Of a stretch of DNA of 60,119 nt, positions 20,203 through 30,559 are shown piece after piece. Within the stretch, counting starts at the first letter, position 1. Each line of letters begins with the position of its first letter. Source of the DNA: Buttiauxella izardii (lineage in GTDB: Bacteria > Pseudomonadota > Gammaproteobacteria > Enterobacterales > Enterobacteriaceae); assembly GCF_003601925.1 (NCBI RefSeq), contig NZ_QZWH01000045.1, positions 1 through 60,119 on the forward strand, given 5' to 3'. The notes beneath the pieces were generated by a model that did no database searches, was not told the origin of the DNA, and worked only from the letters and a program-made list of their open reading frames with translations. The translations under genes and the position numbers were made by a program.

Positions 20203-21396
20203 GTGGAAAAGTTTGATGCCGTAATAATTGGTGCGGGAGCCGCAGGAATGTTCTGTGCAGCGATGGCTGGGCAGGCGGGAAGCAAAGTGCTGCTCATCGA
20301 TAACGGTAAAAAACCAGGCCGTAAAATTCTGATGTCCGGCGGCGGGCGCTGCAACTTTACTAACCTTTATATCGAGCCCGCAGCGTATCTCAGCCAAAAC
20401 CCTCATTTTTGTAAGTCTGCTCTTGCGCGCTACACCCAATGGGACTTTATCGACATGATCGGTAAGCACAATATTGCGTGGCACGAAAAGACTCTGGGCC
20501 AGCTTTTTTGTGACGAATCCGCGCAGCAGGTTGTCGATATGCTGGTGGCCGAGTGTGAAAAAGGGCAAGTTACGACGCGCCTGCGCAGTGAAGTGTTGAG
20601 CGTGGAACGTGATGAAAACGGCTATACCCTCGAATTAAACGGTGACACCGTACAAGCGCCAAAACTCGTCATCGCCACGGGCGGGCTTTCGATGCCGGGC
20701 CTGGGCGCGACGCCATTCGGCTACAAAATTGCTGAACAGTTTGGTTTGAAAGTGTTACCGACTCGCGCTGGCCTGGTGCCGTTTACGCTCCATAAACCGC
20801 TGCTCGAACAATTACAGGTGCTTTCTGGCGTCTCGGTTCCTTCTGTTATTACGGCTGAAAACGGTGTCAGTTTCCGCGAAAGTTTACTGTTTACCCATCG
20901 CGGCCTTTCCGGCCCGGCGGTTTTACAGCTTTCGAGTTACTGGCAACCTGGCGAGTTTGTGAGCGTTAACTTACTTCCTGATACCGATCTGGATGAGCTT
21001 CTTAACGAACAGCGCAACGCCCATCCGAATCAAAGTCTGAAAAACACGCTGGCGATGGTGCTGCCAAAACGCCTGGTGGAATGCCTGCAACAGCTTGAGC
21101 AAATTCCTGATGTGACGTTAAAGCAGCTTAATAGCCGCCAACAAACTGAATTAACCGAAACGCTGCAAGAATGGAAAGTGCAACCTAACGGCACCGAAGG
21201 CTATCGCACCGCAGAAGTCACCCTCGGCGGCGTGGACACCAACGAACTGAGTTCACGCACCATGGAAGCGCGTAACGTGCCGGGGCTTTACTTCATCGGC
21301 GAAGTGATGGACGTAAGTGGTTGGTTAGGTGGGTATAATTTCCAATGGGCATGGAGTTCCGCCTGGGCTTGTGCGCAGGATTTAGTGGGTCAGTAG
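20203..21396 (+). CDS. yhiN: YhiN, NAD(P)/FAD-dependent oxidoreductase (HI0933 family)
   Basis: This 397-residue flavoprotein begins with a dinucleotide-binding motif (VIIGAGAAGMFCAAMAGQAG). It has the family signatures GRKILMSGGGRCNFTN and, at the end, EVTLGGVDTNELSSRTMEARNVPGLYFIGEVMDVSGWLGGYNFQWAWSSAWACAQ. The start is GTG at 20203 after GGGAGTAGG. The HI0933/BaiN family includes bile-acid reductases, but the reaction of YhiN itself is not known to me. Next to pitA and divergent from it, as in E. coli. Confidence 0.92.
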   Translation: MEKFDAVIIGAGAAGMFCAAMAGQAGSKVLLIDNGKKPGRKILMSGGGRCNFTNLYIEPAAYLSQNPHFCKSALARYTQWDFIDMIGKHNIAWHEKTLGQLFCDESAQQVVDMLVAECEKGQVTTRLRSEVLSVERDENGYTLELNGDTVQAPKLVIATGGLSMPGLGATPFGYKIAEQFGLKVLPTRAGLVPFTLHKPLLEQLQVLSGVSVPSVITAENGVSFRESLLFTHRGLSGPAVLQLSSYWQPGEFVSVNLLPDTDLDELLNEQRNAHPNQSLKNTLAMVLPKRLVECLQQLEQIPDVTLKQLNSRQQTELTETLQEWKVQPNGTEGYRTAEVTLGGVDTNELSSRTMEARNVPGLYFIGEVMDVSGWLGGYNFQWAWSSAWACAQDLVGQ

Positions 21397-21500
21397 CGTC
21401 CAAATTTAAAACATTACATACCATGCCGATGGCAAAACTCTGAGTGGGTTAATTTTATTTCCTCATTCATATCAGGTGATCAAATTACAGGGACAGTTTT

Positions 21501-23114
21501 ATGAACGTTATCTATTACTCAATTGCAGGAGTTGTCGCTCTCATAGCCTTTTTGGTTGTGCTTGTCGTAAACAACAGAAAGTTAAAAGCTGTTAAAGCGG
21601 ATGCCGCAGATAAAGCCGCTCGCCTGGAACGCTACGCGACTATCACTGATGCCGAGGCTGAAGCTGATCGTATTGTCAGTATAGCCAAAGCAGCTGCACA
21701 GGAGCTGGAAACGGATTCACAGCGCATCCTGGATGAAGCAAAGATCGAAGCTGCGAAGACTATTGCTGTGAGTGAAGATGATGCAAAGTCAATTACTACA
21801 CGCGCTGATAATATTCTTTCTGATGCGCGTATCGCTGCCAAACGTCTGAACACTGAAGCTCTGGACGCTGTTGAAAAACAACGTTCCAAACGTGCTGAAA
21901 TTGAAAAGCAGATCGATGATCTACGTAATTCATACCGCGAAAAGAAGATTACTTTTGACGAGTTGGATGAAGCATTGTCGATTTATAAAGACGATATGGA
22001 ATTTGCCGAAATGGGCTTCTATGCCCCGCATTTTGATTTTGATACTTCTGAAGTTTTCCAGAATGCTATTCGCGCCAATCGTCAACGGCAGAAAGATATG
22101 TTGCGCGTCAAAACCGCGCTAGGTGCTATTTATTGCACTACAGAATGGACTGTGGGTGGCTCGAAGACTGAGGGCAATAAAATGACCACACGGGGCATTA
22201 ACATGACCGCCCGTGCATTTAATGGTGAGTGTGATGCAGCCATTGCCAATACCAACTTTAAGAACGTGGCAACCATGGAGTCACGTATATACAAAGCCTT
22301 TGATGTGTTGAACAAGTTAAATGAAGTCAACCAGATCCACATTAACCACGCCTACCGTGATCTGAAAATTGAAGAATTGCAGCTCACGTTTGAATACCGG
22401 GCAAAGAAGCAGGAAGAGAAAGAAGAGCAACGAGAAATTCGAGCCCAGATGGCCGAAGAGCGAAAAGCTCAGGCTGAGATTGACCGTGCCATCCGTGAAG
22501 CTGAAGAAGAAGAGCGCCGCGCCCAGAAAGCGCTGGATAAAGCCCGTAAAGAAATGGCTGAGAAATTGGCGAAAATGACCGCTGAACAAGCGTCAAAATA
22601 TCAGGAAAAGATCGATGCATTACAAGATGCGTTAACGGAAGCTGAGCTGAAAGGACAAAAAGCCCTAAGCATGGCGCAGCAGACCAAACGGGGTCATGTT
22701 TACGTTATTTCTAACATTGGCTCATTTGGAGAGAATGTCTTTAAAATAGGTATGACGCGTCGCCTTGACCCACAAGACCGCGTAGATGAACTGGGAAGTG
22801 CTTCAGTCCCATTCCTGTTTGATGTTCACGCAATGATTCATAGTGACGATGCTCCTGCCATGGAAAACTCGCTTCATCAGCATTTCAACGAGAAACGCAC
22901 CAACCTGGTGAACAAACGAAAAGAATTCTTTAACGTGAGCCTCGAGGAAATTAAAGAAGCGGTGTTTGATGTTGCCGGGAGCGATGTGGACTTTATCGAA
23001 ACGGCAAGTGCTCAGCACTACTTTGAAACGAAAGCCATTCGTAAACAACAGGCCGCAGCAGTAACACCGGTGGAAAATGAAGTTAAGCCACCTCGCTTTG
23101 CCGAAGCTATTTAA
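21501..23114 (+). CDS. membrane-anchored DUF4041 protein with GIY-YIG (T5orf172) nuclease domain
   Basis: This 537-residue protein has four parts. One N-terminal membrane helix (4-24, YYSIAGVVALIAFLVVLVV) is followed by a long alanine/glutamate-rich coiled coil (25-165). A DUF4041-like domain (about 165-295) includes EMGFYAPHFDFDTSEVFQ and AIYCTTEWTVGG. A second charged coiled coil (295-395) leads to a T5orf172/GIY-YIG-type domain (396-490) with HVYVISNIG...NVFKIGMTRR...DRVDELG and the acidic residue in APAMENSLHQHF. This suggests a nuclease held at the inner membrane, facing the cytoplasm. AGGGA precedes the ATG. Not present at this site in E. coli K-12, so probably acquired. Function unknown; phage defence is one guess. 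Confidence 0.8.
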   Translation: MNVIYYSIAGVVALIAFLVVLVVNNRKLKAVKADAADKAARLERYATITDAEAEADRIVSIAKAAAQELETDSQRILDEAKIEAAKTIAVSEDDAKSITTRADNILSDARIAAKRLNTEALDAVEKQRSKRAEIEKQIDDLRNSYREKKITFDELDEALSIYKDDMEFAEMGFYAPHFDFDTSEVFQNAIRANRQRQKDMLRVKTALGAIYCTTEWTVGGSKTEGNKMTTRGINMTARAFNGECDAAIANTNFKNVATMESRIYKAFDVLNKLNEVNQIHINHAYRDLKIEELQLTFEYRAKKQEEKEEQREIRAQMAEERKAQAEIDRAIREAEEEERRAQKALDKARKEMAEKLAKMTAEQASKYQEKIDALQDALTEAELKGQKALSMAQQTKRGHVYVISNIGSFGENVFKIGMTRRLDPQDRVDELGSASVPFLFDVHAMIHSDDAPAMENSLHQHFNEKRTNLVNKRKEFFNVSLEEIKEAVFDVAGSDVDFIETASAQHYFETKAIRKQQAAAVTPVENEVKPPRFAEAI

Positions 23115-23180
23115 TCTTCGATACGAAATGCATTAGTGGGTGCGCAATAACCCTCTCGTTCAATAAACCAGGCTGCTGAT

Positions 23181-23528
23181 ATGCGTCTTAATGTTGTTTG
23201 TTACACCTTGCTGGGGCTGGCGCTAATCGCCAGCTTTTTCTTTACTCATCCGATTGGGATGTGGTTGTTCCTCGTCACTTTATTGACGTTTCTGGTGTAC
23301 GGCGCAGACAAATTTGCGGCCCGTAAAGGCTGGCAGCGAGTCCCGGAAATCACGCTGTTAGTTTTTGGACTTGTCGGCGGTTGGATTGGTGCGATTTTCG
23401 GCCAGCAGGTGTTCCGGCATAAAACTCAAAAACAGCCGTTCAGAACCTGGTTTATGCTCAGTATTGCCGTGAATATCGTGGCGGTGTTGGGAGCGGGATA
23501 CTGGATGTATGGTCGCTGGATTTTTTAG
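23181..23528 (+). CDS. DUF1294 inner-membrane protein
   Basis: This 115-residue protein has three or four membrane segments. The DUF1294 signature is clear: LVYGADKFAARKGWQRVPEITLLVFGLVGGWIGAIFGQQVFRHKTQKQPFRTWF. Family members sometimes carry a cold-shock domain; this one does not. It follows the DUF4041 gene by 66 bases in the same direction and is closed by a strong terminator, so the two may form one transcript. Function unknown. Confidence 0.85.
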   Translation: MRLNVVCYTLLGLALIASFFFTHPIGMWLFLVTLLTFLVYGADKFAARKGWQRVPEITLLVFGLVGGWIGAIFGQQVFRHKTQKQPFRTWFMLSIAVNIVAVLGAGYWMYGRWIF

Positions 23529-23544
23529 TTTCATATAATAAAAA

Positions 23545-23577
23545 ACGCCCCGGTTAACGAATTAGCCGGGGCGTTTG
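23545..23577 (+). terminator. intrinsic terminator after the DUF1294 gene
   Basis: ACGCCCCGG (23545-23553) pairs with CCGGGGCGT (23566-23574) around a 12-base loop. TTTGTCTTTTC follows, 17 bases after the stop codon. Confidence 0.92.
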
Positions 23578-23984: not shown

Positions 23985-24330
23985 TATTAGCAGGTAGCAC
24001 GTTAAGCATTGCTCAAGAACTGAGCATGGGGATTTTTACGTTCGTCAGTTGCGCGCTTCAACGCCACTCATTAACGACCCTTTTTTGGCGGCAAGGTGGT
24101 GATTCACTCGAGCATCTTGGTTTATAGCGATAATGGAAGCCAACTAGCATCGGTTGTGGCGCACGAAATCTCACACGTTACCCAGCGCCATCTGGCGCGT
24201 GCGATGGAAGACCAGAAAAATAGTTCTTCATTAGTCTGGGTCGGAACATTAGGCGCGTTGTTTTAGCCACCGCCAGCACATAAGCGGGAATGGCTGCGTT
24301 AACGGCGATAAACACCGGGCTTTCTAAGTC
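23985..24330 (+). pseudogene. bepA: decayed internal fragment of bepA (M48 metallopeptidase)
   Basis: Pieces of periplasmic protease/chaperone BepA (YfgC) can be read across two frames. GSTLSIAQELSMG is followed by a frameshift near 24029. [17 protein letters not shown] then jumps straight to [45 protein letters not shown], as if about 38 residues were deleted. A TAG stop follows near 24264, and AGMAALTAINTGLS reappears in another frame. The zinc motif HEISH is intact but there is no start, signal peptide or C-terminal TPR domain. E. coli bepA lies far from this locus, so this looks like an extra, dead copy. The rightward LysR gene begins just after it. Confidence 0.8.
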
Positions 24331-24342
24331 AAAAAGGAATGT

Positions 24343-25236
24343 ATGAAAGATAAAATAACAAAGGCAGAATTGAAAGCGTTTCAAATACTTGATCTTGTCC
24401 TCCGTCTTAAAAGTATAAAAGGTGCGGCTTCCGCTCTCGATATATCACAGGCAACCGTAAGTAAAACTCTTCAAAATATGCGTGAACTGTATAACGACCC
24501 AATCTTTTTTCGGGTGAGTCGGCAGTTAGAGCCAACCGTTTTTGCGCGTAGTCTTCACAAACGCATACAGTTAAAATTAAAGAGTAATACTGCACGGCCT
24601 GATTCGTCGGAGCTGATTCCAGGCAGTGAGCGGCTGGTGATTTCGAGTGCAGAGCATATCTCACCCAATATCATCCCTCTCACTTTTCATTTAGCAAAAG
24701 ATGAGAAGATCAATTCTGTCATACACGTTCCATTACCAGATTCACCAGAGAATGATTTGTTAAACAAATCAGTGGATGTGGTTTTTGATTATTATCCCAT
24801 TAACCACCCGGATATCATTTACAAGAAACTATTAAAAGAAGAGTTATGCATAGCTTGTAGTGAAAACCATCCGCGTATTTCACATTCAATGACGCAGAAA
24901 GAGTACTTACAGGAGTCGCATGCGCTTCTGAAAGGGAAATCTCCGGTCATCCGCATGAATGACAGCAAACCCGGCGACAGTTTGATAGGCAAAAATGTTG
25001 AGTTCGAAAGCGGTAGTTACATCGATCTGCTTTCCGTCGTGGAAGTGAGTGACCTGATTTGTATTATACCGACCAGCATTTTTGTGAAATTCAGCAGTGT
25101 ATTTATGATTAAAGCACCAAGATATAATTTTAATTTAGGCTTTAAAGCACCGATGCTCTATATGAGCTATCGTAAGAATTTTCAAAATGATTTTGAAAAA
25201 TACCCGATCATGAAGCTTTTGGAAAAAATTCATTAA
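24343..25236 (+). CDS. LysR-family regulator (first of two)
   Basis: This 297-residue protein has an N-terminal winged helix, FQILDLVLRLKSIKGAASALDISQATVSKTLQNMRELYNDPIFFRVSRQLEPT, typical of LysR regulators. The effector domain has a predicted RD-I segment DVVFDYYPINHPDIIYKKLLKEELCIACSENHPR. AAGGAATGT precedes the ATG. It lies between the bepA remnant and a REP pair, facing the second LysR gene, and upstream of a fimbrial operon in an AT-rich region. Its target is unknown; control of the fimbriae is possible. It is not a close match to any LysR protein I can name. Confidence 0.82.
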   Translation: MKDKITKAELKAFQILDLVLRLKSIKGAASALDISQATVSKTLQNMRELYNDPIFFRVSRQLEPTVFARSLHKRIQLKLKSNTARPDSSELIPGSERLVISSAEHISPNIIPLTFHLAKDEKINSVIHVPLPDSPENDLLNKSVDVVFDYYPINHPDIIYKKLLKEELCIACSENHPRISHSMTQKEYLQESHALLKGKSPVIRMNDSKPGDSLIGKNVEFESGSYIDLLSVVEVSDLICIIPTSIFVKFSSVFMIKAPRYNFNLGFKAPMLYMSYRKNFQNDFEKYPIMKLLEKIH

Positions 25237-25299
25237 GATTGTTAAAGATGAAAGGTTACGAAAATAATTTTTGTTGTGTTCAAGGTTTCAAAGGCATTT

Positions 25300-25376
25300 G
25301 TCGGATGACGCTTACGCTTATCCGACCTACGAAGGGAACGGTTTTGTAGGGTGGATAAGCGCTAGCGTCATCCACC
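25300..25376. repeat. REP pair in inverted orientation (BIME-like)
   Basis: The first unit GTCGGATGACGCTTACGCTT...CTAC (25300-25330) and the second, GTAGGGTGGATAAGCGCTAG...CACC (25346-25376), are near-perfect inverted copies separated by 15 bases. The form is that of enterobacterial REP elements. They lie between two convergent LysR genes and can fold into a long hairpin. Confidence 0.85.
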
Positions 25377-25397
25377 ATTTTCGTATGAAGGAAAAGG

Positions 25398-26330
25398 TTA
25401 ATAGAGTTCTTTACAGCCATTGATTACCTTAAGCAATTCGGTGAAGTTTTTGTTCTTTAGCGAGCTTCTATTGTAGGTCATATAAAACGTGACGGGGTCG
25501 GCTACAAAATCGGTTTCCAGCGTTTTGATGTTAAAGCTCAATGCTGCTTTTTTGGCAAACCATAAAGGAATGAAACTGATGCAGTCGGTCGATTCAGTAA
25601 TGGCCGTAATTGCGATAATAGAACTGCTGCTGAACGAAAATTCACGTTCGCCAAAATGTTCAAGTACATCATTTTGAAAACGTTTTACCCCTTCTGAACC
25701 GGTCATGAGTAAGGTTGCGTTTTCCCTTGCAATGTCTTCTATCGACAGGGTTGACCCTAAACGTGGGTGATCCTTGCGGCAAATCGGTACCGTTTGTTCC
25801 GTGATAAACTGCTCTGTGACGGTCGAAAAACTGTAATAAGGTTTGGTATCAAAAATGATGTCTGCTTTGCGGTAGATTAAAATATCTTCGTCATTGTTTA
25901 ATGATGCATCTGCGCTGATGTGCGAGATTTCACAGCGCAAGTTTGTAGTTTCAATTTTCGAGCATATTGGCGGCAAAATCCGCATGGCACCGTAGGCGGT
26001 TGAATGAATGATAAATTTGCTTTTTGTGCTGGTGTCCTTGAAGTAGTCCAGGCTATTAATTAGCTGACCAAAACCTTCACTCAAGTGCGTGTGCAGGTTT
26101 TCAGCAACCGTCGTTGCCACCAGGCCTTTCCCTTCCCGCACAAAAAGCGGATCGTCAAAGAAGCTGCGTAATCGAGTCAACGACTGGCTCACCGCTGATG
26201 GAGTAATTCCAAAAAGACTGGCAGCCTTAGACACGCTTTGATGTATAAAAATTGCCTCAAACGTTAAAAGCAAGTTTAAATCAAAACCTTTGATTTTATC
26301 TATGTTGGATAAAAGTGTGTTGTCAGACAT
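25398..26330 (-). CDS. LysR-family regulator (second of two)
   Basis: This 310-residue LysR-type regulator has the winged helix FDLNLLLTFEAIFIHQSVSKAASLFGITPSAVSQSLTRLRSFFDDPLFVREGKGLVATTVA, resembling YbeF/LeuO-type proteins, and a full effector domain. It is divergent from the fimbrial operon, whose first gene starts 311 bases away. That arrangement makes it the most likely direct regulator of the fimbriae and of itself. No TTG start or unusual feature was needed. Not recognisable as LeuO itself. Confidence 0.85.
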   Translation of the reverse strand: MSDNTLLSNIDKIKGFDLNLLLTFEAIFIHQSVSKAASLFGITPSAVSQSLTRLRSFFDDPLFVREGKGLVATTVAENLHTHLSEGFGQLINSLDYFKDTSTKSKFIIHSTAYGAMRILPPICSKIETTNLRCEISHISADASLNNDEDILIYRKADIIFDTKPYYSFSTVTEQFITEQTVPICRKDHPRLGSTLSIEDIARENATLLMTGSEGVKRFQNDVLEHFGEREFSFSSSSIIAITAITESTDCISFIPLWFAKKAALSFNIKTLETDFVADPVTFYMTYNRSSLKNKNFTELLKVINGCKELY

Positions 26331-26640
26331 ATAACCCTCTGAATTTATAAATTGCCCAGAAGCCCGATTTGCTGTTTTTCCTGTTCTATTTTAGGAAGCA
26401 GTATAGCAGAAGAAAGCTTATCTATTATCTTAAACGCTACAAAAATAGTCGAATAAATAATTATTACTGATGTCACTACTAATGATATCTAAAGGTTTTT
26501 TTACGGGGAACGTGCATTAAGAATTTTTAAAACTATCTATAAGCGTGGCTAACTGTTCTGCTAACTCATTAAGTTGTAAAATTCAGTCTGTTTAGAAAAT
26601 ATAATCATTTCAACTAATATATAAAGAGAATAGGCATTTT
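26331..26640. promoter_or_regulatory. control region between LysR gene and fimbrial operon
   Basis: This 310-base AT-rich gap should hold the promoters of both divergent genes. TATAAT at 26600-26605 is a perfect -10 hexamer 36 bases before the fimbrial start, but no good -35 stands at 16-18 bases, which suggests an activated promoter. No inverted repeats typical of phase-variable fim switches flank it. Confidence 0.45.
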
Positions 26641-27210
26641 ATGAAACGTATAGCTAAACGTACATTATCTGCTGCTATTATTTTAGCTGCAGTAAGTTCG
26701 CCGTTGATCGCCAATGCGGAAGAAGGGGATGTTACTTTTAATGGTAAAGTTGTTGCCTCTACTTGTGTATTAAAAGGTGTTAATGGAACGGCTCAAAAGA
26801 CAGGTGTTATTGTTACATTACCTGATGTTAATGTAGGTGAATTTAACAAAACCTCTCTGTTAGCAGGGATGACTCCTTTTACCCTTGAGTTAGAAAACTG
26901 CAATACTGCGACCAAACAAAATGCCAGTGTGCATTTTGAAGGGCCAGAGGCACCTAATGATCCGGATGTTTTGAGGAATACCATCGACGCCCCTGCCGGT
27001 GGTGCAAGTGGTGTAGGTATTGCTTTATTTGAAGATAACGGCACAGACAAAATCAGCGTTAAGCCCGGTGTTTATTCTGCTAAGCAGGCAATCGTAAATG
27101 GTGATAATGCGTTGAAATTTAAAGTGGCCTATAAAGCAACTGAAGGAATTGCGTTGATGTCTGATGGTAATGTTTCCGCAAAAGCTATTTTTGATATTGC
27201 CTACGAGTAA
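26641..27210 (+). CDS. type 1-like fimbrial major subunit
   Basis: This 189-residue pilin has a signal peptide (AAIILAAVSSPLIANA), then EEGDVTFNGKVVASTCVLKG, the standard N-terminal donor strand and first beta strands. Cys42 and Cys87 form the expected pilin disulphide. It ends AKAIFDIAYE with the penultimate Tyr of chaperone-usher subunits. First gene of a four-gene cluster (subunit, usher, chaperone, adhesin). Codon use and AT content are lower in GC than in the neighbouring core genes, in line with transfer. Confidence 0.9.
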   Translation: MKRIAKRTLSAAIILAAVSSPLIANAEEGDVTFNGKVVASTCVLKGVNGTAQKTGVIVTLPDVNVGEFNKTSLLAGMTPFTLELENCNTATKQNASVHFEGPEAPNDPDVLRNTIDAPAGGASGVGIALFEDNGTDKISVKPGVYSAKQAIVNGDNALKFKVAYKATEGIALMSDGNVSAKAIFDIAYE

Positions 27211-27269
27211 TATATCGTTACACTTTAAAACATAATTACATCTTAATTTCTCTTATTAATCCGTTTGTA

Positions 27270-29855
27270 ATGAAAAGTGGGGGTATTTTGCTGAATTATA
27301 TAGATGCCCCCGCTTTTATATTAATTATTATTTCGTGGCTTCTATGTGGTTTCTTTGCAAACGCTGCTTGTGCAGAAGATGCACAACCTATTTATGACGT
27401 GAATTTCTTACGTCAGGGAAATGACAACGCTCCATTACCGGACAGCTTTTATAAACCGGATGCCGTGTCTGCTGGCGAAAAAGAAACCGAAGTCTCGGTA
27501 AATGGGGAAAGCAATAAAAAAGTTAAAATAGTCTATTTTCAGAATTTAGAGAAAAAAGAAACAGAGCCTTGCTTTACTGCCGAGTTATTAAAAAATCTGG
27601 GCGTTAACTCTCAGGGGCTTGAGGCAATAAATTCCTCAAGTTTTCAAAATGCCCCAAAAGAAACTTGCCTGGATATGAACCAAAAATGGCCAGATGCCAC
27701 CTTCAAATATGACGAAGGCAATCAAAGCGGCACGTTATCGGTTCCACAGTCCGTTTTAATCCCTGTTGATCCTTTTGCAGTCATAGACCAGAGCCTGTGG
27801 GATAACGGAATTAACGCGGTACGCCTGAATTACAACGCCTATACCTACCAGACGAATAACCATTCAGGCGCGGGCGATTCCACCACTAACAGCAGTTATT
27901 TAAGTCTGAATTCGGCCATAAATTTGGGGCGCTTTCGTTTTTATAGTTTCGATACATTCAATAAAAATGACAACGAAAAGTGGGAAAACAACCACGATCA
28001 CGCCTATGGCGAAGTGGACGTTAATCCGCTGCTGTCTACGCTTTCGATGGGAGGGGTTTACAGCGCCGCTCCGAATAACATTATGGGTTCGATCCCTATA
28101 AATGGGATGTCGATAGGGACCAATGCGCAGATGTTGCCCAATGAATCCTTTAACTACACGCCGGTGATTCGTGGTGTGGCGCGAACCAATGCCAAAGTCA
28201 CTATTCGCCAGCGTAATAACATTATTTATAGTAAAACCGTGCCGCCGGGCAGCTTTGCGATAACCGACCTGGTCAACGCCCAGCATGATACTGACCTGAA
28301 CGTCACCGTTGAGGAAAGCGACGGCACGCAGCAGACATTCAGCATGCCATATACATCTGTGCCCGACATGATTCGCCCTGGAAGCTGGCGCTACAGCGTG
28401 AGCGCAGGCCGTTATCGCGGCAGCGATTCCCTCAGCCATTCGCCAAATATTGCTCAGGCCAGCCTCGAGTACGGTTTTGACAAAATGACGTTGAGTAATG
28501 TTCTGCTGGCGGGTGAAGGCTACAAATCGGTGGGGATTGGCGGCGCGTACAACCTGGGTTACTGGGGAACGCTGTCCCTGGACTGGGCGATGGAACGCCA
28601 TGAAGACGACGGTTCAGAGGTAGAAAACCAGGCGGCGCAAACCACCCATCAAGGGCAGGCTGTTCGGGTGTTATATGCACGCCAGTTCGATTCCACGAAC
28701 ACCTCAGTCCAGGTGTCGGGCTATCACTTCCGCACGCCAGATTTTCAGGAATTTAGCGATTATGCCGACCGTCGCTGGGGCGATGGTGATGACTATTCTG
28801 AGCATCGTAGAAACGAATTTGAGCTGACCGTAAACCAGATATTAGGCAGCTATGGCAACGTGTATCTGACGCTGGACAAAACCCAGTATTATCAGGACAA
28901 ACCCGGCGGGCACTCGCTGACGTTTGGCTATAATGCATTAATAGGTAAAGCCTCCGTGGGCCTTAACGCCAGCTACAACAAAACCGAAGGTAGCAGTAAT
29001 AGCAACGACAAACAGTTGTCGATGAACATCTCTATACCTCTGGATTTCGGCGAACACCACAGCAGCTCATTGTCGTTCTCCACGACCAGCAGCGGCGGTC
29101 AGAGCAGCCAGAACGCGACGCTATCGGATTCAGTGTTGGATAACACGCTGGATTACAGCGTTAGTGCGCAGCGCAACGAGCAGGGCGAGTTGTCGCCTTC
29201 GGCAGCAGTAAACTACCGAACTCCATCGGCAAACTACACAGCCAGCACGTCGTTAGGCAAAGATTCTGATCAGTATTCACTGGGTGTTTCTGGCGCCATG
29301 TTGGGGTACAGCGGGGGCGTGATTCTGGCGCAAAACCTCAGCGACACGGTGAATATCGTCGAAGCGCCCGACGCCGCGAATGTCTCGATTGACGGGCATC
29401 CTGGCGTGCGAACTAACGCTAAAGGTAACGCGGTAGTGCCGTATGTTACTCCATATCGTGAAAACAAAATTTCACTCGATACCCGCACTGCGGCACAAAA
29501 CGTGGAATTGCAACAAACAGGAATGAACGTGACGCCAACACGCGGCGCCGTGACTTTGACCCGTTTTGCGACCCGCGTCGGTCGGCGAGCCATCGTTAAA
29601 TTAACCCTGCCAGACGGTAAGAACGCGCCATTCGGTGCTTACGTTTATCAGGAAAAGGTAGAAGTCGGAATGGTCGCCAATGACGGCATTATTTATTTGT
29701 CTGGTGTACTGGCGAAAGGCACGACGCCACTAACGGTGCAATGGGGTGATAAAGGGAGTGAGCAATGCCACTTTACCCTTCCCGCGACGACAGAGTCCTC
29801 GTCTTCTGATTGGTATCAACAAACGCAGCAAATATGTCAGCCAGGTGCAGCATGA
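27270..29855 (+). CDS. fimbrial outer-membrane usher
   Basis: This 861-residue FimD/PapC-type usher accepts chaperone-subunit complexes and extrudes the fibre through the outer membrane. It has an N-terminal periplasmic domain (YDVNFLRQGNDNAPLPD...), a plug and barrel (VIRGVARTNAKVTIRQRNNIIYSKTVPPGSFAITDL), and C-terminal domains (DGHPGVRTNAKGNAVVPYVTPYRENKISLDT). The C-terminal CHFTLPATT...ICQPG carries the usual two cysteines. The ATG at 27270 has a poor leader; TTG at 27288 follows GTGGGGG and may be the real start, still giving a signal peptide. The stop overlaps the chaperone start by four bases. Confidence 0.9.
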   Translation: MKSGGILLNYIDAPAFILIIISWLLCGFFANAACAEDAQPIYDVNFLRQGNDNAPLPDSFYKPDAVSAGEKETEVSVNGESNKKVKIVYFQNLEKKETEPCFTAELLKNLGVNSQGLEAINSSSFQNAPKETCLDMNQKWPDATFKYDEGNQSGTLSVPQSVLIPVDPFAVIDQSLWDNGINAVRLNYNAYTYQTNNHSGAGDSTTNSSYLSLNSAINLGRFRFYSFDTFNKNDNEKWENNHDHAYGEVDVNPLLSTLSMGGVYSAAPNNIMGSIPINGMSIGTNAQMLPNESFNYTPVIRGVARTNAKVTIRQRNNIIYSKTVPPGSFAITDLVNAQHDTDLNVTVEESDGTQQTFSMPYTSVPDMIRPGSWRYSVSAGRYRGSDSLSHSPNIAQASLEYGFDKMTLSNVLLAGEGYKSVGIGGAYNLGYWGTLSLDWAMERHEDDGSEVENQAAQTTHQGQAVRVLYARQFDSTNTSVQVSGYHFRTPDFQEFSDYADRRWGDGDDYSEHRRNEFELTVNQILGSYGNVYLTLDKTQYYQDKPGGHSLTFGYNALIGKASVGLNASYNKTEGSSNSNDKQLSMNISIPLDFGEHHSSSLSFSTTSSGGQSSQNATLSDSVLDNTLDYSVSAQRNEQGELSPSAAVNYRTPSANYTASTSLGKDSDQYSLGVSGAMLGYSGGVILAQNLSDTVNIVEAPDAANVSIDGHPGVRTNAKGNAVVPYVTPYRENKISLDTRTAAQNVELQQTGMNVTPTRGAVTLTRFATRVGRRAIVKLTLPDGKNAPFGAYVYQEKVEVGMVANDGIIYLSGVLAKGTTPLTVQWGDKGSEQCHFTLPATTESSSSDWYQQTQQICQPGAA

Positions 29856-30559
29856 ATCTTAAGTTTTTAAAATATACCGCTCTTTTATTGGGCATTGTTT
29901 CCGCTTCTGCGAGCTTTGCCGCAGTCAGGCCAGAATCGACCCGCGCATTAATTTATGTCAGCGACAAAGAAGGCAGCGTGCCGATTACCAACGACAGCAC
30001 GGATACTGCCTATCTGGTGCAGTCGTGGCTTGTGGATCTCAAAGGGAACGACAAAAACATTCCCGTTATTCTGACTCCGCCGCTGTTCAAAATTGAACCG
30101 AAAAAACAGGCTAAACTGCGTTTAATGGTGGTGCCAAACCAACTGCCTCAGGATCGCGAATCTGTTTACTGGCTGGTGATTCAGGAAATCCCACCGAAAA
30201 CCACGGCTAAATCTAATGAACTGGTGGTGGCGGTTCGCACGCGCATGAAAGTGTTTATTCGCCCTCAGGGTTTAGAAGGCAAACCGCGTGAGAGCGTGGA
30301 AAAACTGAACTGGCGCGTGGAATCGAGCGGTAAAGAGAGCTGGCTTGTGGCGCAGAACCCAACGCCGTATTACGTCAGCTTTGCCGAACTGGATGTCAAT
30401 TCCAAAGAGTTGAGCGATCGCCGTGAAATGGTGCCTGCCAAAGGTGAAGCACGTTATCGCCTGCCTGCCGGAGTCTCAGCCGGTAACCTGAACGTGAGTT
30501 ATTCAGCCATTAATGATTTTGGTGGCAACAGCGCGGTTATCACTAAAAGCGTTAAATAA
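29852..30559 (+). CDS. periplasmic fimbrial chaperone
   Basis: This 235-residue PapD/FimC-type chaperone has a signal peptide ending ASASFA, then AVRPESTRALIYV, where the Arg corresponds to the subunit-anchoring residue. KKQAKLRLMVVPNQLPQDRESVYWLVIQEIPP is the classic G1-F1 region and VFIRPQGLEGKP the interdomain linker; QNPTPYYVSF starts the second Ig domain. Start at 29852 overlaps the usher stop as ATGA, so the two are translationally coupled. It folds fimbrial subunits by donor-strand complementation. Confidence 0.93.
   Translation: MNLKFLKYTALLLGIVSASASFAAVRPESTRALIYVSDKEGSVPITNDSTDTAYLVQSWLVDLKGNDKNIPVILTPPLFKIEPKKQAKLRLMVVPNQLPQDRESVYWLVIQEIPPKTTAKSNELVVAVRTRMKVFIRPQGLEGKPRESVEKLNWRVESSGKESWLVAQNPTPYYVSFAELDVNSKELSDRREMVPAKGEARYRLPAGVSAGNLNVSYSAINDFGGNSAVITKSVK

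Follow-up and report, generated by a model that had tools for sequence, protein, structure and literature searches.

A putative SNIPE (PD-lambda-1) phage-defence gene in an apparent single-gene insertion beside yhiN of Buttiauxella izardii

Gene content and insertion site

The window analysed here is a 60,119-nucleotide stretch of Buttiauxella izardii DNA (assembly GCF_003601925.1, contig NZ_QZWH01000045.1, positions 1 to 60,119). Positions 21501–23114 of its plus strand hold a genuine open reading frame, without in-frame stops, whose product is 537 residues long and which we annotate from the ORF, Pfam, PADLOC and alignment evidence as a homologue of SNIPE (PD-lambda-1). Upstream lies yhiN (20203–21396, +; ORF, Pfam), the host gene at the insertion site, which encodes an HI0933-like flavoprotein and is not part of the system. 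Downstream lies a gene for a DUF1294 membrane protein (23181–23528, +; Pfam, congener), followed by a terminator-like stem of 15 pairs (23543–23576). The first-pass annotation had placed these last two elements correctly, but its proposal that the gene separates pitA from yhiN did not stand: the gene adjoins the 3' end of yhiN, and comparison with the congener G011 places the insertion between yhiN and the DUF1294 gene. No promoter was found upstream of the gene; the one match of the scan is on the minus strand within the gene, and shuffled sequences gave 3.7 matches on average.

The empty site is seen in G011, where yhiN directly adjoins the DUF1294 gene; the flanks align at 86% (left) and 85% (right), with the intervening 1.75 kb absent. 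Alignment to this congener delimits an inserted segment of 1751 bp, counting one repeat copy (21391–23141), and a 9-bp direct repeat, TTAGTGGGT, whose left copy (21382–21390) falls within the last codons of yhiN and whose right copy occupies 23133–23141. G011 has one copy of the repeat, with one mismatch, and the repeat is the sole 9-bp identity at its offset among 58,359 window positions. Read by eye, the insertion alters the end of the YhiN protein from GAQ-stop to GQ-stop. The insert consists of one gene, carries no recombinase and has a G+C content of 0.451, compared with 0.526 for yhiN. By eye, no terminal inverted repeats were seen at its ends; no tRNA that would explain the site lies in the window, and megablast of the insert against plasmids and phages, to trace where its DNA came from, gave no match. 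The DNA that Serratia plymuthica shares with the window runs only from 21464 to 23128 (82.6% identical), so the piece in common is approximately the gene itself. The repeat is compatible with target-site duplication as well as with a short-homology join, on the basis of one empty-site genome, and the host bacterium apparently gained the gene as a single-gene segment.

The homologue is patchily distributed: it is present in one of the 12 genomes of the genus, all 12 of which carry yhiN. In a family sample of 295 genomes, 23 have a match at E 0.001 or better, and in five the match is near full length (the host's own; G270, 83%; G058, in two pieces; G185 and G225, 44%). The DUF1294 gene was ruled out as a component of the system, both because it sits beside yhiN without SNIPE in G011 and because its relatives occur in 6/12 genus genomes compared with 1/12 for SNIPE. 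The stretch downstream of yhiN varies within the genus, with the DUF1294 gene in 2/12 and a common transporter gene in 8/12 of the pieces fetched. In the window, two LysR-type regulator genes and a chaperone-usher fimbrial cluster (24343–30559) lie between the DUF1294 gene and the transporter gene. The same transporter gene directly follows the DUF1294 gene in G011, which makes 24343–30559 a second insertion adjoining that of SNIPE. A short remnant with an HEISH motif (about 24096–24267), presumably resembling the core of an M48 metalloprotease, lies between the DUF1294 and LysR genes.

Domain organization and structural models

The architecture described in the first-pass annotation, with one N-terminal membrane helix, long coiled coils around DUF4041 and a C-terminal GIY-YIG-type domain, was borne out in each of its elements. 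A single hydrophobic segment at about residues 3–23 (21507–21569, +) is predicted from hydropathy to form a membrane helix: the top 19-residue Kyte-Doolittle means (2.6) begin at residues 3–5, and the highest such mean past residue 40 is 0.97. In the AlphaFold2 model of the whole protein, built from 56 sequences (pLDDT 80.9, pTM 0.45), helices 2–88 and 92–172 are followed by a mixed domain from residue 183 to about 282, and helices 283–355 and 361–396 by an alpha/beta domain at 398–492. According to the model, these helices include a helical stalk (about residues 31–172; 21591–22016, +), which in the alignment has the lowest conservation, and a long helical linker (residues 283–396; 22347–22688, +). 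DUF4041 (PF13250) itself covers residues 238–289 (22212–22367, +; E 4.6e-18, 65.3 bits against a cut-off of 27); the corresponding domain of the model is larger (about 183–282). The nuclease domain (residues 398–488; 22692–22964, +; Pfam, alignment and model) is matched by T5orf172 (398–488, E 3.9e-17) and MUG113 (414–488, E 1.6e-17). All three Pfam matches exceed their gathering cut-offs; NCBIfam gave weak matches only, far under the cut-offs. The window protein is the one T5orf172 match in its own genome.

No PDB fold match reached E < 0.001 for the whole model or for the nuclease domain alone. When the nuclease domain was modelled separately (pLDDT 88.8), its four top PDB matches, at weak E values of 0.55–1.4, were three entries of Slx1 and one of HIGLE, which we take to be GIY-YIG-type proteins. 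The whole-model search (best E 0.41) returned mostly coiled-coil or unrelated proteins among the 50 matches listed, with Slx1 entries at ranks 6, 7 and 14, indicating the nuclease fold. Searches of PDB sequences gave nothing with the single protein, nothing up to E 1 with the nuclease profile, and weak, mostly coiled-coil matches with the whole profile. In a viral structure library the whole model had 37 matches with E < 0.001, and many of these carry the name T5 Orf172 domain protein.

Comparison with E. coli SNIPE at residue level

The window protein matches the PADLOC PD-Lambda-1 model (PDLC03977) at 4e-205, with residues 1–536 aligned to positions 1–495 of 496, and PHROG 1847, a family of unknown function, at 5e-161. 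The DUF4041 protein first came from a phage-defence selection in E. coli (PMC9519451), a study that also describes a gene-neighbour tabulation for its 21 systems, and PD-lambda-1 was renamed SNIPE in 2026 (PMC13190303). As described there, E. coli SNIPE resides in the inner membrane and uses its GIY-YIG domain to cut lambda DNA as this is injected. Its DUF4041 promotes the binding of DNA and is probably in contact with the tape measure protein, through a face that is variable across the family. ManYZ is the membrane partner for lambda; the published model sets the N-terminal region of SNIPE against ManYZ, and the authors suggest that this region is an adapter setting the phage range. A 2026 review gives the same account (PMC12904381). 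SNIPE is an already known defence system with a published mechanism, of which the window gene is an additional copy.

As reference we used the PD-lambda-1-annotated protein of Escherichia phage PhiR26_1, because at each of the nine residue numbers that PMC13190303 names it carries the wild-type letter; we infer that it is the very protein used in that study. Its gene is found at 95% or above in 128 of 5426 E. coli genomes. The two proteins are 51.6% identical over 492 aligned residues, and the identity is unevenly spread along the chain. It is 17% for residues 1–30, 29% for 31–165, 60% for 166–300 (the DUF4041 region), 54% for 301–395, 75% for 396–490 (the nuclease region) and 38% for 491–537. 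E455 of the window protein aligns with E414, the catalytic Glu mutated in PMC13190303. Among the other eight named positions two are kept (E223 and T319 of the reference), and N250, L253, W257, E264, K305 and I308 are replaced by D, I, Q, A, Q and L, respectively. Because the membrane and stalk ends have diverged and two of the eight named residues are kept, the phage range of the window copy may differ from that of the reference.

Conservation across the family

From 111 confirmed homologue loci 80 were retained, and 55 of these together with the window protein make up a 56-protein alignment (A1); nine loci with in-frame stops in the translated frame and, by our choice, 16 near-duplicate or truncated ones were left out of it. 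A second alignment (A2) holds 46 of the 56 proteins. Eight residues are invariant in A1: Y401, K415, G417, R420, R421, R427, E455 and N468. The catalytic Tyr/Arg/Glu set, whose absence the first-pass annotation had named as grounds for giving up its reading, is present as Y401, R427 and E455, identical in 56/56. The mean majority fraction is highest in the nuclease region (0.77) and lowest in the stalk (0.36) across the 56 proteins, and PMC13190303 likewise describes the nuclease region as the most conserved and the stalk as the least.

SNIPE proteins have a conserved face of positive charge on DUF4041. In the DUF4041 region, 11 positions are basic in at least 45 of the 56 proteins; the window protein is basic at seven of these and non-basic at positions 187, 226, 234 and 252. 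These four lost basic positions speak against a straight transfer of function from the reference. When a crude hydropathy cut is applied, an N-terminal membrane helix is scored in only 18 of 77 homologues; PMC13190303 gives a higher share, 66% (59% with one, 7% with two).

Genomic contexts of the relatives

The first-pass annotation had proposed tabulating the neighbours of DUF4041 homologues for defence genes, and would have been contradicted by a housekeeping context shared by most relatives. The three nearest homologues lie in contexts unrelated to one another, with no housekeeping context common to them. Ten neighbouring proteins (those of the three homologues and of the window gene) were compared with PADLOC at 1e-5. 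The DUF4041 protein of Serratia plymuthica NBRC 102599, 89% identical to the window protein and of equal length, has two defence-type genes upstream, encoding an OLD/GajA-like ATPase (PADLOC Old, 1.3e-65) and an nSTAND3 protein (PDC-S73, 1.5e-40). The other eight proteins had no match at this threshold: the two downstream neighbours in Serratia plymuthica, three neighbours in Superficieibacter (83%), one in Erwinia aphidicola (78%), and yhiN and DUF1294 in the window. The Serratia locus (L002:128–4573), with its OLD/GajA-like ATPase-TOPRIM gene, nSTAND3 gene and SNIPE homologue, is likely a small defence cluster.

A separate observation concerns relatives that have the SNIPE linker and nuclease. 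In the 414-residue E. coli representative these are 49.5% identical over 202 residues and accompanied by a coiled coil; no DUF4041 match was found in it, and two hydrophobic N-terminal stretches were noted by reading. Such proteins, with a gene for a 133-residue protein in front, lie at L106:3144–4388 (E. coli A30), L148:5144–6388, L149–L154 and L156. In E. coli A30 the relative is part of a type VI secretion cluster, where it follows tssF, tssG, tssJ, tssE and the 133-residue gene. In E. coli MB06234 it is accompanied by the small gene and a fragment of a type VI ImpA-family gene, with no tss genes in the piece shown. Among eight larger family loci, five have adjoining TssG, TssJ and TssE genes, another two carry the small gene together with a VasL-like gene, and one has neither, so that seven of the eight, plus E. 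coli A30, are in or near type VI secretion genes. A NERD/UvrD gene lies downstream of the relative in both E. coli loci and in one of the eight family loci. In E. coli 326 records matched, and 29 of 30 among the matches listed are named "GIY-YIG nuclease family protein"; two of these loci were examined. The main text of the SNIPE paper makes no mention of T6SS or type VI (PMC13190303), and the GIY-YIG entries in a paper on Salmonella are PAAR-RhsA fusions, a different kind of protein from the 414-residue relatives. The DUF4041-less relatives are perhaps a nuclease module with another sensor, and their presence in type VI secretion clusters may be a more open question than the SNIPE of the window.

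Interpretation and alternative explanations

We consider that the window gene probably encodes a SNIPE (PD-lambda-1) defence protein, tethered to the membrane and cutting entering phage DNA, with a probability of roughly 0.87. The reading draws on homology over the whole length, the order of the domains, the predicted membrane helix, the conserved catalytic residues, the patchy presence and the empty site. The first-pass annotation had guessed at a nuclease held at the inner membrane against incoming DNA; this has been demonstrated for the E. coli homologue (PMC13190303), and for the window copy the guess is supported by the full-length PADLOC match and the conserved catalytic Glu.

A protein that is SNIPE by descent may nevertheless have become inactive, or act only on phages that the usual panels do not include, after its membrane end and tape-measure face drifted. 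The replaced residues at six of the eight named positions and the four lost basic positions would agree with this, as would the finding that near-identical homologues can differ in activity: in Streptococcus thermophilus one PD-Lambda-1 homologue is strongly protective against some phages, and a second, 98.5% identical, gives no protection (PMC12322248). The frame without stops, the intact catalytic residues and the retention of an 89% identical relative in another genus argue against it, and we regard such a loss as unlikely, although it is the most serious of the alternatives.

Homing endonucleases of the T5orf172 type are free-standing soluble nucleases. A selfish element of this type spreading its own gene would account for the bare insertion, and phage T5orf172 nucleases are indeed homing endonucleases (PMC10448857), but the window protein has a predicted membrane helix and a DUF4041, its nearest relatives are found at unrelated sites, and defence is the role of the reference protein (PMC13190303), so we hold this origin to be very improbable. 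Still less credible is a host protein of chromosome segregation or the envelope; the long coiled coils and the names "chromosome segregation ATPase" or "ParA" given to some homologues would suit it, but Pfam finds no ATPase domain and the gene is missing from 11 of the 12 genus genomes.

For the defence reading, the E. coli reference provides the outline of a mechanism. The protein most likely sits in the inner membrane through its single N-terminal helix, with the remainder in the cytoplasm. At the site of phage injection DUF4041 would bind both the tape measure protein and the incoming DNA, and the C-terminal GIY-YIG domain would cleave this DNA ahead of its replication. Host DNA would be left unharmed because the nuclease is tethered and kept inactive.

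The host encodes manXYZ (ManX 90%, ManY 91% and ManZ 92% identical to K-12) and also carries a second, distant PTS set. The known partner ManYZ is thus available in the host, yet the N-terminal region, which faces ManYZ in the published model, is the part of SNIPE that has diverged. Taking the diverged helix, the longer stalk and the altered tape-measure face together, we tentatively suggest, at somewhat less than even odds, that the window protein belongs, with its relatives, to a branch of SNIPE that has another membrane adapter. This branch would dock at an injection route other than ManYZ, have a different phage range and move as a bare one-gene segment without a recombinase of its own. 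With its nuclease and DUF4041 kept and its membrane end and tape-measure face changed, the protein can serve to test the idea of an N-terminal adapter. The empty site and the 9-bp repeat show that a SNIPE-type system can be acquired on a 1.75-kb segment with one gene and no visible mobile element. An architecture picked blind from raw sequence turned out to be one whose mechanism was published in 2026, here in a divergent natural copy.

Comparison with known systems

The window protein shares with E. coli SNIPE (PD-lambda-1) its membrane helix, stalk, DUF4041, linker and GIY-YIG domain with the catalytic Glu, all encoded in a single gene. It is longer (537 compared with 500 residues), with a net gain of 36 residues in the stalk, and it lies in a bare insertion at yhiN, whereas the PhiR26_1 copy is inside a lambdoid phage. 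New here are the patchy presence in the genus, the empty site and the 1751-bp single-gene insertion with its 9-bp repeat. The Serratia plymuthica copy differs in location, lying beside the OLD/GajA-like and nSTAND3 genes rather than at yhiN.

Among the matches listed, DUF4041 proteins encoded on Klebsiella plasmids and phages or on Pantoea plasmids are 74–75% identical over the full length; 185 plasmid records match, 113 of them from Klebsiella, together with 37 phage records. The Klebsiella-type forms have a stalk 18 residues shorter than that of the window protein, as aligned with the pKP389-3 form. In the three loci of Klebsiella-type plasmids and phage examined (L105, L108 and L157, one of them an E. 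coli plasmid) the homologue has a similar location, flanked on one side by a metallophosphoesterase/exonuclease block and on the other by a RepB replication gene. The T5orf172/MUG113 GIY-YIG proteins of phages and giant viruses have the nuclease domain family and fold in common with the window protein, and their matches cover mainly the nuclease domain.
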